64,000 nucleotides of DNA from Heminiphilus faecis. Its GTDB lineage: Bacteria > Bacteroidota > Bacteroidia > Bacteroidales > Muribaculaceae. The notes under the pieces are model-generated. The model saw nothing but the letters and a program-made list of their open reading frames with translations, did no database searches and was not told the DNA's origin. The position numbers and the translations under genes are program-made. Positions within the stretch are counted from its first letter, which is position 1, and each line of letters opens with the position of its first letter. Positions 50,910-57,607 of this stretch are shown piece after piece. The stretch lies in contig NZ_VSMC01000005.1 in the NCBI RefSeq assembly GCF_008728965.1, positions 1 to 64,000 on the forward strand. Direction: 5' to 3'.

Positions 50910-50940
50910 TTGCATATTTAAAAGATTTGCTCTACATTTG
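50910..50940 (+). promoter_or_regulatory. Promoter of the aromatic amino acid operon
   Basis: TTG (50910-50912) is followed after exactly 20 bases by TACATTTG (50933-50940). Transcription should begin near 50944-50947, about 20 bases before the leader ATG. Confidence 0.75.
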
Positions 50941-50965
50941 TAGCGTAAAACAGAACCAAACAGAT

Positions 50966-51019
50966 ATGACTCGATTTTATGCATATTATTTTTCTTACTT
51001 TTATTTCGCAAGGAATTAA
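50966..51019 (+). CDS. Phe/Tyr-rich leader peptide of an attenuator
   Basis: The frame encodes MTRFYAYYFSYFYFARN and stops at 51017-51019. Nine of 17 residues are Phe (4) or Tyr (5), concentrated at positions 4-14. It follows a consensus promoter by 26 bases and precedes a terminator hairpin at 51071-51110, then the Phe/Tyr biosynthesis genes. This is the layout of pheL-type leader peptides in enterobacteria. The sequence is unrelated to them and no homologue is known to me. Confidence 0.85.
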   Translation: MTRFYAYYFSYFYFARN

Positions 51020-51081
51020 AGCGGGCAGATATGTATACATGACATCGACGATATAATAAAACGTATTTTTAAAGTCCCGCT
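50978..51081 (+). promoter_or_regulatory. Alternative RNA pairings of the attenuator
   Basis: Three segments can pair in alternative ways. Segment 1, TATGCATAT (50978-50986, codons 5-7), matches segment 2, ATATGTATA (51029-51037), over 9 bp with one G-U. AGCGGG (51020-51025), just behind the leader stop, is complementary to CCCGCT (51076-51081) in the 5' arm of the terminator. A ribosome stalled on the Phe/Tyr codons would leave AGCGGG free to disrupt the terminator. A ribosome at the stop codon would cover it. Folding energies were not computed. Confidence 0.65.
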
Positions 51082-51110
51082 CCTAACATTTAGGTCGGGA
51101 CTTTAATTTT
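51071..51110 (+). terminator. Attenuator terminator
   Basis: AAAGTCCCG (51071-51079) pairs with CGGGACTTT (51096-51104), and inside it CCTAA pairs with TTAGG around CAT. AATTTT follows. It lies between the leader peptide and pheA, 22 bases before the pheA start. Confidence 0.88.
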
Positions 51111-51132: not shown

Positions 51133-51981
51133 ATGAAAAAGCGCGTAACAATCCAAGGTGTGGCCGGCTGTTACCATGATGCCGCCGCCCGTAAATATTT
51201 CGCAGACGAAGATATCGACACGATACCTTGCGAATCGTTTCACGATATGTTCGAGACATTGTCTGACGACGCCTCGCTACTCGGCATTCTGGCTATAGAA
51301 AATACCATAGCGGGCTCTTTGCTGCAAAATCATGAACTCCTGCGCAAAAGCCACATGCAGATTGTGGGCGAATACAAGATGCGCATATCACACACTCTTG
51401 CGGCTCTTCCGGGACAAACTATCGACGAGCTTACCGAAGTCAACTCTCATCCGATGGCCCTAAGGCAATGCGAACAGTTTTTACACCGTCATCCCAATTT
51501 AAAAATGATAGAAGCGTTTGACACGGCCGGCAGCGCGAAAGAGATTGCGGAAAAAAAACTTATGGGACATGCAGCAGTATGCGGCGAATATGCAGCCGAA
51601 CTGTACGGACTGAATGTGTTGCAGCGCGAAATAGAAACCAACAGGCGCAACTATACGCGTTTTCTCATTATCACCGACCCTCTGATGGCCGCAGAAATGG
51701 CCCCTCCAGAAACCGATATCAACAAAGCGTCGATAGTATTTACCACTCCACACACTCAGGGAGCATTGTCGAAGGTGCTTACAATTTTCTCCTTCTACGA
51801 CATAAATCTCTCAAAAATACAGTCAATGCCCATAGTAGGGCGAGAGTGGGAATATCGTTTTTATGCCGACCTTACTTTTGACAGCTACGCGCGTTACCGC
51901 CAGTCCATAGAAGCCGTACGCCCATTAATCAACGACCTCCGCATACTTGGAGAATATACCGAATGTAAAAATGAAATCTGA
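51133..51981 (+). CDS. pheA: Prephenate dehydratase
   Basis: The enzyme turns prephenate into phenylpyruvate on the way to Phe. The 282 residues hold the catalytic PDT domain (about 5-185), with AIENTIAGSL (about 55-64) and the NYTRFLII motif (about 175-182), followed by a C-terminal ACT domain (about 197-275) with GALSKVLTIFSFYDINLSKI, the usual Phe feedback site. It is a stand-alone dehydratase; chorismate mutase is fused to DAHP synthase two genes on. It is the first structural gene behind the attenuator and overlaps the next gene by 11 bases. Confidence 0.95.
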   Translation: MKKRVTIQGVAGCYHDAAARKYFADEDIDTIPCESFHDMFETLSDDASLLGILAIENTIAGSLLQNHELLRKSHMQIVGEYKMRISHTLAALPGQTIDELTEVNSHPMALRQCEQFLHRHPNLKMIEAFDTAGSAKEIAEKKLMGHAAVCGEYAAELYGLNVLQREIETNRRNYTRFLIITDPLMAAEMAPPETDINKASIVFTTPHTQGALSKVLTIFSFYDINLSKIQSMPIVGREWEYRFYADLTFDSYARYRQSIEAVRPLINDLRILGEYTECKNEI

Positions 51982-53152
51982 CATCAAAATAATTCCGGCC
52001 GACAGAGTATCGGAAATTCAGGAGTATTACTTTTCCCGCAAACTGCGTGAGGTTGCAAAAATGAACGCCGAAGGCGCCGACGTAATATCGCTCGGAATAG
52101 GCGGCCCCGACCTGCCCCCCCACTCCGAGGTCATCGACACCCTTGCCGAAGAGACCCGGAAACCCGGCAATCACAGTTACCAACCATATGTAGGCATACC
52201 CGAGCTACGCAAAGCCATGGCTGACTGGTATGCAAGATGGTACGGCGTAGATCTTGATCCGACAACCGAGGTGCAGCCGCTCATAGGCTCCAAGGAGGGC
52301 ATACTGCATGTATCGCTCGCATTCCTGAACCCGGGCGACGGAGTACTTGTACCGAATCCCGGATACCCGACCTACTCTTCCGTAAGCCGACTGGCTCAGG
52401 CCACAATATACAACTACGACCTAACGGAAGAAAAAGGATGGCTGCCAGACTTCGACGCACTCGAGAAACTGCCTCTCGACAAAATAAAACTCATGTGGAT
52501 CAACTATCCGCACATGCCTACAGGCACTCCGGCCACCCTCGAACTTTTTGAAAAGATAGTAGCATTCGGCAAGAAGCACAATATAGTCATAGCACACGAC
52601 AATCCGTATAGCTTCATCCTTAACGACAAGCCGCTCAGTCTTCTTCAGACCAAAGGAGCCAAAGACATAGCCATAGAGATGAACTCAATGAGCAAGTCAC
52701 ACAACATGGCCGGTTGGCGCGTAGGCATGCTTGCCTCCAATCCTACATTTATAAACTGGATACTTAAGGTCAAATCAAATATTGACTCCGGACAATTCAA
52801 GCCCCTTATGCTTGCGGCGGTAAAAGGTTTTGAAGCAGGACAGGATTGGTATGACGGTATCAACGCCACATACTCGGGGCGCCGGAAAGTAGCTGAAAAA
52901 ATAATGACAGCGCTGCAGTGCACCTACGACCCGGCTCAGAAAGGACTGTTTCTGTGGGGACGTATTCCCGACAGCGAACCTTCAAGCGAATCCCTTGCCG
53001 ACAAAGTGCTGTATGACGCACACGTATTTATCACTCCGGGCTTCATATTCGGCAGCAACGGCGACCGATATATACGCATATCGTTATGCGCCAACGAACA
53101 AAATATGCTGCGGGCTCTTGACCGTATTAACGAAATGAATAAAAACCATTAA
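51971..53152 (+). CDS. PLP-dependent aminotransferase, likely aromatic
   Basis: The ATG at 51971 gives 393 residues and starts inside the pheA 3' end. It is a fold type I aminotransferase: the PLP-binding Lys is about residue 242 in SMSKSHNMAGWRVG, with NPGYPTYSS (about 132-140) and the AHDNPYSF stretch. Such enzymes act on aspartate, LL-diaminopimelate or aromatic amino acids. Its place between prephenate dehydratase and DAHP synthase suggests the last step to Phe and Tyr (phenylpyruvate and 4-hydroxyphenylpyruvate transamination). That role is inferred from context. Confidence 0.9.
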   Translation: MKSDIKIIPADRVSEIQEYYFSRKLREVAKMNAEGADVISLGIGGPDLPPHSEVIDTLAEETRKPGNHSYQPYVGIPELRKAMADWYARWYGVDLDPTTEVQPLIGSKEGILHVSLAFLNPGDGVLVPNPGYPTYSSVSRLAQATIYNYDLTEEKGWLPDFDALEKLPLDKIKLMWINYPHMPTGTPATLELFEKIVAFGKKHNIVIAHDNPYSFILNDKPLSLLQTKGAKDIAIEMNSMSKSHNMAGWRVGMLASNPTFINWILKVKSNIDSGQFKPLMLAAVKGFEAGQDWYDGINATYSGRRKVAEKIMTALQCTYDPAQKGLFLWGRIPDSEPSSESLADKVLYDAHVFITPGFIFGSNGDRYIRISLCANEQNMLRALDRINEMNKNH

Positions 53153-53164
53153 TCATAGACTGAC

Positions 53165-54244
53165 ATGAACGAATTAAAACCTCTCCTGAAAGATGAGACC
53201 GAAAAACTCCAACCCATCATAATAGCCGGCCCGTGCAGCGCCGAAACAGAAGAACAGGTAATGGCCACCGCCCGCGAACTCGCTAAAAACGGGGTGAAAA
53301 TATTTCGCGCCGGCATATGGAAACCCCGCACCAAACCCGGAGGCTTCGAGGGTATCGGCGTAGAAGGTCTACAATGGCTCAAACATGTAAAAGAGGAGAC
53401 CGGAATGCTTACCTCGACAGAAGTGGCTACAAAACAGCACGTGGAAGCCGCTCTTGAAGCAGGAGTAGACATTTTATGGATTGGAGCCCGCACATCGGCC
53501 AACCCGTTTGCCATGCAGGAAATAGCCGACGCACTCAAAGCATCGGGAGTAGACATACCGGTGCTTGTAAAAAATCCGGTGAATCCTGATCTCGAATTAT
53601 GGATCGGAGCTCTACAGCGTCTATACAATGCCGGCATAAATCGTCTCGGAGCCATCCACCGAGGCTTCAGCTCCTATGGCAAGCACCTGTACCGTAACCT
53701 GCCGCAGTGGCACATACCTATAGAACTGCGCCGCCGTTTTCCCGACTTGCCATTGCTCTGCGACCCGAGCCACATCGGAGGCAAACGCGAATTAGTAGCG
53801 CCGCTATCACAACAAGCTCTTGACATGGGCTTTGACGGACTCATCATCGAAAGCCATTGCGACCCGGACTGCGCATGGAGCGACAAAGCCCAGCAAGTAA
53901 CACCCGACGTACTCAACTTTATTCTAAACACCCTTGTGCTACGCGACTCTACCGTAACAACCGAAAGCCTCACCCTGCTCCGTCAACAGATTGATGAACT
54001 CGACAACGAGCTTCTTGAAGTACTCAACAAGCGTATGAGAATATCGCGCGAGATTGGCCAATACAAAAAAGAGCACAGGATGCCTGTACTGCAGATAGGC
54101 CGTCATGACGAGATAATGCAGTCACGCGCCAAACTTGCGGAAGATATGGGAATGAGCGGCGATTTTATGCGCTCGGTGCTGGCTGCAATACACGAGGAGT
54201 CGGTACGTCAGCAAATTGAGATATTTAACGACCGCACTCATTAA
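53165..54244 (+). CDS. Fused DAHP synthase and chorismate mutase
   Basis: The 359 residues combine DAHP synthase of the KDO8P-synthase-like class (about 15-255; IIIAGPCSAETEEQ, KPRTKPGGFEG, LLCDPSHIGG, DGLIIESHCDP) with an AroQ-type chorismate mutase (about 268-350; LRQQIDELDNELLEVLNKRM). DAHP synthase starts the shikimate pathway and chorismate mutase makes prephenate, so the fusion joins the first step with the Phe/Tyr branch point. In related fusions the mutase part carries feedback control. It starts 12 bases after the aminotransferase gene. Confidence 0.95.
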   Translation: MNELKPLLKDETEKLQPIIIAGPCSAETEEQVMATARELAKNGVKIFRAGIWKPRTKPGGFEGIGVEGLQWLKHVKEETGMLTSTEVATKQHVEAALEAGVDILWIGARTSANPFAMQEIADALKASGVDIPVLVKNPVNPDLELWIGALQRLYNAGINRLGAIHRGFSSYGKHLYRNLPQWHIPIELRRRFPDLPLLCDPSHIGGKRELVAPLSQQALDMGFDGLIIESHCDPDCAWSDKAQQVTPDVLNFILNTLVLRDSTVTTESLTLLRQQIDELDNELLEVLNKRMRISREIGQYKKEHRMPVLQIGRHDEIMQSRAKLAEDMGMSGDFMRSVLAAIHEESVRQQIEIFNDRTH

Positions 54245-54258
54245 ATATATACTGCATT

Positions 54259-55032
54259 ATGAAAATTCTTATTATCGGAGCGGGAAAGATGGGCTCGTTT
54301 TTCTGCGACCTGCTTTCCCAGAACCATGATGTGGCTATATACGACACCGAACCACGGCGACTTTTGTTCACGTTTATGTGCCGACGCTTCAGTGACCTGT
54401 CGGAAGTTGACAGTTTCGCCCCCGACATGGTCATAAACGCAGCTACAGTAAAGTATACACTCGACGCATTCAAAGCGGTAATGCCGCATCTGTCCGAAAG
54501 ATGTATTTTAAGCGACATCGCTTCGGTAAAAACCGGCTTGCCGGAGTTTTATGCCTCATGCGGCCATCCTTTTGTATCGACCCATCCTATGTTCGGTCCC
54601 ACATTTGCCTCGTTGAGCAATCTGAGCAATGAAAACGCCATAATCATCGCCGAAAGCGACCATCTGGGCAAAGTATTTTTCAAGGATCTCTATTCAGGAC
54701 TGGGTCTTCACATCGAGGAATACACTTTTAAAAAGCACGACGAAACAATCGCCTACTCTCTATCAGTACCGTTCGCGTCCACTCTTGTCTTTGCCGGCTG
54801 CATGAAACATCAGGATGCCCCGGGCACCACATTCAAGCGCCACAAGGCCATAGCCGACGGACTTATGAGTGAAGACGATTACCTACTCAGTGAGATACTG
54901 TTTAATCCACATACCTCAGGGCAGCTTACCAAGATACAGCAAAAGCTTGCCGAGCTGCAACAAATAGTCGAAGAGCACGACAACGAGGCCATGCAGAATT
55001 ACCTTGACTTGGTAAGACAAAATCTGAAATAA
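54259..55032 (+). CDS. tyrA: Prephenate dehydrogenase
   Basis: TyrA oxidises prephenate to 4-hydroxyphenylpyruvate, the Tyr branch. The 257 residues begin MKILIIGAGKMGSFFCDLLS, a Rossmann motif. The catalytic region shows STHPMFGPTFASL (about 112-124; conserved His) and the helical dimer domain follows. It is short for the family and has no ACT domain. It lies 14 bases after the DAHP synthase gene. All four enzymes for Phe and Tyr from chorismate are thus under one attenuator. Confidence 0.93.
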   Translation: MKILIIGAGKMGSFFCDLLSQNHDVAIYDTEPRRLLFTFMCRRFSDLSEVDSFAPDMVINAATVKYTLDAFKAVMPHLSERCILSDIASVKTGLPEFYASCGHPFVSTHPMFGPTFASLSNLSNENAIIIAESDHLGKVFFKDLYSGLGLHIEEYTFKKHDETIAYSLSVPFASTLVFAGCMKHQDAPGTTFKRHKAIADGLMSEDDYLLSEILFNPHTSGQLTKIQQKLAELQQIVEEHDNEAMQNYLDLVRQNLK

Positions 55033-57521: not shown

Positions 57522-57546
57522 ATTATCAGCATACACAAAATAAAAC

Positions 57547-57596
57547 AGAAGTCAGGCAGAAACCATGTATATTCTGCCTGACTTCTATTTTATTTT
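57547..57596. terminator. Bidirectional terminator between mutS2 and the M3 peptidase
   Basis: A 15-bp perfect stem (57547-57561 with 57572-57586) is flanked by A-rich and T-rich sequence. It ends the aromatic-mutS2 transcript and probably the convergent M3 peptidase transcript. Confidence 0.9.
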
Positions 57597-57607
57597 GTCA
57601 ACGATTG

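Follow-up and report, generated by a model that had tools for sequence, protein, structure and literature searches.

A conserved Phe/Tyr leader frame and covarying terminator and antiterminator helices upstream of pheA point to a leader-peptide attenuator in Bacteroidia

The window, i.e. the whole 64 kb stretch of DNA that was analysed, contains four genes for aromatic amino acid synthesis on the forward strand (Table 1). Domain matches confirmed the earlier calls of a prephenate dehydratase (pheA), an aminotransferase, a DAHP synthase-chorismate mutase fusion and a prephenate dehydrogenase. Upstream of pheA, the 17-codon frame MTRFYAYYFSYFYFARN runs from an ATG at 50966 to a TAA at 51017-51019 on the plus strand. 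It comprises four Phe and five Tyr codons, and these nine aromatic codons, which had been pointed out before, can be read directly in the sequence. When both strands of the window were searched for ATG frames with a length of 8-60 codons in which 8 or more of 12 codons are Phe/Tyr, MTRFYAYYFSYFYFARN was the sole hit, and 20 dinucleotide-shuffled windows yielded none.

The earlier note had placed a consensus promoter in front of this frame. A sigma-70 scan revealed no site directly upstream of the leader, and a promoter of that type was dropped, as a Bacteroidetes-type box accounts for the promoter: TACATTTG (50933-50940) matches the -7 box TAnnTTTG, the consensus given for Bacteroidetes promoters in PMC9723704. 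What stands is a promoter-like box of the Bacteroidetes rather than the sigma-70 type. A TAnnTTTG element lies at most 70 nt upstream of the leader in 120 of 161 loci, compared to 7.4% of shuffles, at a median of 29 nt before the leader ATG.

Table 1. Features of the pheA upstream region and operon in the window.
Feature	Position	Strand	Basis
Putative Bacteroidetes-type promoter	50910..50940	+	TTG 50910-50912, 20 nt, TACATTTG 50933-50940
Leader peptide frame MTRFYAYYFSYFYFARN with stop; putative sensing element	50966..51019	+	sequence, orthologues
Regulatory codons of leader frame	50975-51007	+	
Candidate segment 1, TATGCATAT; possible protector helix partner of post-stop region	50978..50986	+	full-length fold
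Segment 2, antiterminator 5' strand, core AGCGGG 51020-51025	51020..51034	+	fold, covariation
Segment 3, antiterminator 3' strand, core CCCGCT 51076-51081	51063..51081	+	fold, covariation
Intrinsic terminator	51069..51110	+	fold, covariation, conserved in relatives
pheA, prephenate dehydratase	51133..51981	+	PF00800, 186 bits
Class I/II aminotransferase, probably for aromatic amino acids; start codon inferred	51971..53152	+	PF00155
DAHP synthase-chorismate mutase fusion	53165..54244	+	PF00793 + PF01817
tyrA-like prephenate dehydrogenase	54259..55032	+	PF02153

Between the leader and pheA lies an intrinsic terminator (-20.2 kcal/mol, z -4.0). Its presence had been noticed, but the limits given then (51071-51104) were slightly too narrow, as the hairpin spans 51069-51106, with a stem of 51069-51079 and 51096-51106 and an inner stem of 51082-51086 and 51090-51094. 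The U-tract (TTTT, 51107-51110) is short, which we count against an attenuator. Because of its long loop, the window terminator was overlooked by a simple terminator scan; its arms and those of two relatives, likewise overlooked by the automatic finder, were placed by hand from the sequence. A terminator was found in 159 of 163 leader-bearing loci.

The motifs AGCGGG and CCCGCT are located where the earlier note had put them, and they form the cores of a longer antiterminator helix whose 3' strand overlaps the 5' arm of the terminator. For a covariation analysis we used 50 relatives that were aligned by sequence, without structure. In the antiterminator, 84.4% of cells are paired and 8 of 13 pairs show double changes; 46 double-change cells stand against 18.6 in shuffled alignments, a number that none of 500 shuffles reached, and slid controls were at most 53% paired. 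Compensated helices can be recognised by eye, such as GGCAGGA:TCCTGCC in two relatives (L049 and L081) and ATCGGGAT:ATCCCGAT in another (L020). The terminator behaves similarly, with 93.0% of cells paired, double changes in 7 of 10 pairs and 34 double-change cells as opposed to 10.1 shuffled (0 of 500 shuffles reach it), exceeding both shuffles and slid controls. An alignment of the regions upstream of pheA had been proposed as a check on the attenuator, and in it the Phe/Tyr-rich frame is kept while the pairs of both helices covary. A further pairing had been suggested between TATGCATAT (50978-50986), within the leader codons, and ATATGTATA behind the stop. This pairing is possible and partly formed in the full-length fold, but covariation lends it no support: 70% of the cells of this 1:2 protector helix are paired, and its covariation is not above that of shuffles. 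The protector helix is therefore possible but unproven.

For the complete transcript, the predicted fold consists of a leader hairpin and the terminator (-39.1 kcal/mol, z -5.3). When the leader was masked to 51010 and the 3' arm of the terminator had not yet been made, the antiterminator 51020-51034:51063-51081 formed; masking to 51030, which mimics a ribosome on the stop codon, left the terminator alone. Folding with and without the leader blocked, as had been advised, thus gave mutually exclusive structures that switch with ribosome position. The window antiterminator (-14.5 kcal/mol, shuffle z -1.1) is weaker than the terminator, which wins thermodynamically in the window fold once its 3' arm is present. 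Therefore, antitermination would have to be kinetic, as in classic systems. Over 159 loci, the predicted capture of the terminator arm was 0.85 with a stalled ribosome; it fell to 0.58 when the spacer was shuffled and to 0.18 when the ribosome sat at the stop, the last drop being partly trivial as less RNA is exposed; for the window alone the probability was 0.68, compared to 0.53 shuffled. The null is high because G-rich spacers pair with CCC by chance, and covariation is for this reason the stronger evidence.

To follow the arrangement through the phylum, we collected 77 pheA loci from named Bacteroidales genomes and, in addition, loci from other genomes of this order and of the phylum. In relatives, pheA is preceded by leaders such as MTRFYAYYFFFYFYFAKNKNGILCA, MNSFAYTFSFFFYFYFSHKVEREFVCI and MTRTYFWNRFYFYFFYQRGAGLF. 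Leader and terminator together precede pheA in 54 of 60 Bacteroidales, 44 of 46 genomes from other Bacteroidia orders and 5 of 14 from other classes of the phylum, counts that are not unbiased frequencies, since the genomes were sampled from the top of pheA similarity lists. Among the six genomes of the order in which the pair was not detected, one locus (L162) lies at a contig edge without upstream sequence, one (L158) has a leader but no passing terminator, and three carry a leader at the aroF operon rather than at pheA. Phe and Tyr account for 64% of the last 14 codons of the run when these are read in frame; the share is 21-22% in either shifted frame and 34% when the cores are shuffled. 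The enrichment lies in the reading frame and thus indicates a coding signal, not mere T-richness.

The geometry is conserved as well. The 3' end of the antiterminator core 5' strand lies a median of 17 nt past the last aromatic codon (quartiles 16-21; 159 loci), a distance at which the core would sit just outside a ribosome stalled within the aromatic run. In many relatives the leader frame extends through the antiterminator (...NKNGILCA and stop), elsewhere, as in the window, it ends just before; in 86% of loci a ribosome that terminates at the leader stop would cover the antiterminator strand or sit next to it. Two variations were observed. The leaders of other Bacteroidia orders (L178-L185, L218-L234) contain a Trp codon more often than those of Bacteroidales (39% vs 16%); possibly, leaders of operons that include DAHP synthase respond to a third aromatic amino acid. 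In genome G444 (L114 / L142), another frame rich in Phe and Tyr, MKRNIRFYFYYFFYFMINRK..., lies between the first leader and pheA and has a terminator-like hairpin of its own, an apparent case of tandem attenuators.

We then compared leader codons and operon content for 104 leaders with neighbourhood data. In joint operons, the Tyr share is about 0.42 (0.41-0.44 across Bacteroidia). Phe-only leaders, on the other hand, occur at all three stand-alone pheA genes (0 Tyr of 22) and at none of the 101 others (Fisher p 5e-6, with loci treated as independent). These three genes, which belong to different families and are not followed by an aminotransferase, a DAHP synthase or tyrA, are preceded by MRRNSFRFFFFFAFFFCNG... 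(L140), ...MTRFFTHFFFFFTQQ (L150) and ...NNSFFFFFFRS... (L204), and they represent a natural experiment on the match between codons and product. In the genomes with stand-alone pheA, separate aroF and/or tyrA genes carry their own leaders with Phe and Tyr codons: MNNTFGYYAFYYYFFYNN stands immediately before tyrA-aroF in G405, MIKNISVFAYFYYYFYFSKK about 1.4 kb upstream of aroF in G415 and ...HTYYAWSFFFFYFQNKRG upstream of tyrA in G425. Another member of the family of L150 (L168), in which pheA is followed by an aminotransferase and aroF, has a mixed Phe/Tyr leader. As Phe-only and mixed leaders match the gene content of their operons, the leader codons follow the operon products.

These data suggest that the element is, with high probability, a ribosome-mediated transcription attenuator of the trpL/pheL type that senses Phe-tRNA and Tyr-tRNA. 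Its hallmarks are present, namely a frame of product codons, an intrinsic terminator before pheA and an exclusive antiterminator that is masked at the stop. The earlier reading as an attenuator is supported by the conserved frame, the two conserved and covarying helices, the switching folds and the match between codons and operon; apart from the folds, all of these are legible in the sequences themselves. We infer where transcription starts, that the leader is translated, that ribosomes stall on it and that read-through changes. RNA polymerase would start near 50946 and a ribosome would translate the leader. With plentiful Phe and Tyr, it would reach the stop codon and cover AGCGGG, the hairpin 51069-51106 would form, and transcription would end at the U-tract. 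If either amino acid were short, the ribosome would stall on a Phe or Tyr codon, leaving the strand with AGCGGG (51020-51034) to capture that with CCCGCT (51063-51081). This would block the terminator and allow transcription of pheA, the aminotransferase gene, aroF/CM and tyrA.

One may ask whether Phe alone is sensed and the Tyr codons are neutral passengers, for the pheL leader of E. coli contains Phe codons only. A Tyr fraction of 0.41-0.44 in joint operons and of zero in three stand-alone pheA of different families, together with the Tyr-rich leaders of split aroF/tyrA operons, makes this improbable, and the confinement of Phe-only leaders to stand-alone pheA supports the earlier proposal of dual sensing. 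It is also conceivable that the small frame is incidental and that the aromatic supply is registered by another RNA sensor, such as a T-box, a riboswitch or an RNA-binding protein. Terminator and antiterminator alone would suit any attenuator, and a database prediction of 2005 for B. thetaiotaomicron, as tabulated in PMC1173090, gave the attenuator without a sensor. However, conservation of the aromatic frame is high, the choice of its codons follows the operon content, and the antiterminator core keeps a tight spacing to the last aromatic codon. Moreover, an Rfam search of the window and 12 related loci returned no T-box or other family at threshold. We consider such a sensor very improbable.

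Equally, a translated leader could act by reinitiation or translational coupling to pheA instead of transcription termination, since short upstream frames near a gene can raise downstream initiation (PMC4833913). The same study sets the range of this effect at about 10-15 nt, whereas 113 nt separate the leader stop from the start codon of pheA, and the terminator in this interval is strong and covaries; control of this kind is hardly to be expected.

The attenuator proposed here resembles pheL/trpL-type systems in its leader of product codons, the mutually exclusive antiterminator and terminator, and the geometry of ribosome stall and stop. It differs from them in the Bacteroidetes promoter type and its unrelated sequence. 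Moreover, it mixes Phe and Tyr codons, whereas the enterobacterial pheA leader has Phe only. RF01859 (Phe_leader), the Rfam family of this enterobacterial leader, gave no significant match to the window (14.2 bits, cut-off 55, E 8). Leaders that sense several products of their operon are known from enterobacteria, e.g. ilvL (Ile/Val/Leu) and thrL (Thr/Ile); the window leader shares this multivalency, but for Phe and Tyr in place of other amino acids. A comparative paper by Vitreschak et al. (2004) reportedly mentions Bacteroidetes/Chlorobi in its abstract.

Naville and Gautheret (2010; PMC2965389) knew leader-peptide systems only from Proteobacteria and Actinobacteria until they described one in Firmicutes. 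The earlier note knew of no described case in Bacteroidetes, a statement that we have to correct in view of two precedents. Table 7 of PMC1173090 (2005) assigns, after Merino's database, a putative attenuator to the operon pheA>hisHb>aroA-aroQ>tyrA in B. thetaiotaomicron, i.e. in the same phylum and the same operon; terminator and antiterminator are predicted, and the entry names no leader peptide or sensing mechanism and no comparative test. The transcriptome study of Flavobacterium psychrophilum (PMC9723704, 2021) infers from strong clues that amino-acid operons are subject to leader-peptide attenuation, and it describes the 5' regions of pheA and hisG as structured in Flavobacteriaceae. These 5' elements belong to the same phylum, are transcribed, have no Rfam match and are proposed to act by the same mechanism; they are described for Flavobacteriaceae only, and the main text gives neither covariation nor a codon/operon match. 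In addition, leader-peptide-like frames in B. thetaiotaomicron are reported in PMC7366714. The window attenuator is a deeply conserved case of a known mechanism rather than the first hint of it in Bacteroidetes, and the conservation depth, covariation and codon/operon match go beyond the table entry of PMC1173090 and the main text of PMC9723704.

Other operons in the window's genome show a similar layout. The His leader MMTSRLNQHHHHHFLQH and a terminator-like hairpin lie just upstream of hisG at 554 (G000:C14, L135), and in 19 of 25 genomes of the order, including this one, hisG follows a His-rich frame in which 4 or more of 12 codons are His, compared to 4 of 500 shuffles. Upstream of ilvD (G000:C31, L306), the Ile/Leu/Val-rich leader MTTTGCILSIVVLLSVVITILKCTGGAIGCM is followed by a terminator-like hairpin (GCCTCTC...GAGAGGC) and a T-rich stretch. 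A Thr-rich frame upstream of thrA was discarded because it lies inside another open frame.

From the comparative data it seems likely that a dual Phe/Tyr attenuator is conserved across Bacteroidia, where it is perhaps ancestral, and that its codons were re-tuned when the operon was split. If so, transcription and translation would be coupled closely enough at Bacteroidota leaders for a general attenuation strategy (Phe/Tyr, His, Ile/Leu/Val). Bacteroidota lack classical Shine-Dalgarno initiation. Since ribosome-mediated attenuation needs a ribosome closely behind RNA polymerase, the leaders make this coupling directly testable. In a phylum that is dominant in the gut, they would provide a concrete control point, conserved widely, for the synthesis of aromatic amino acids, and ready candidate Phe/Tyr sensors for Bacteroides genetics.

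Two further observations concern the genome and the window. No trpE/anthranilate synthase (PF04715) was found in the window's genome, and the family was detected in 14 of 14 control genomes; possibly, the organism cannot make Trp. At 57535-57598, in the intergenic interval behind the MutS2 gene, sub-threshold matches to eukaryotic miRNA families of Rfam appear on both strands; this hairpin is probably a bidirectional terminator.
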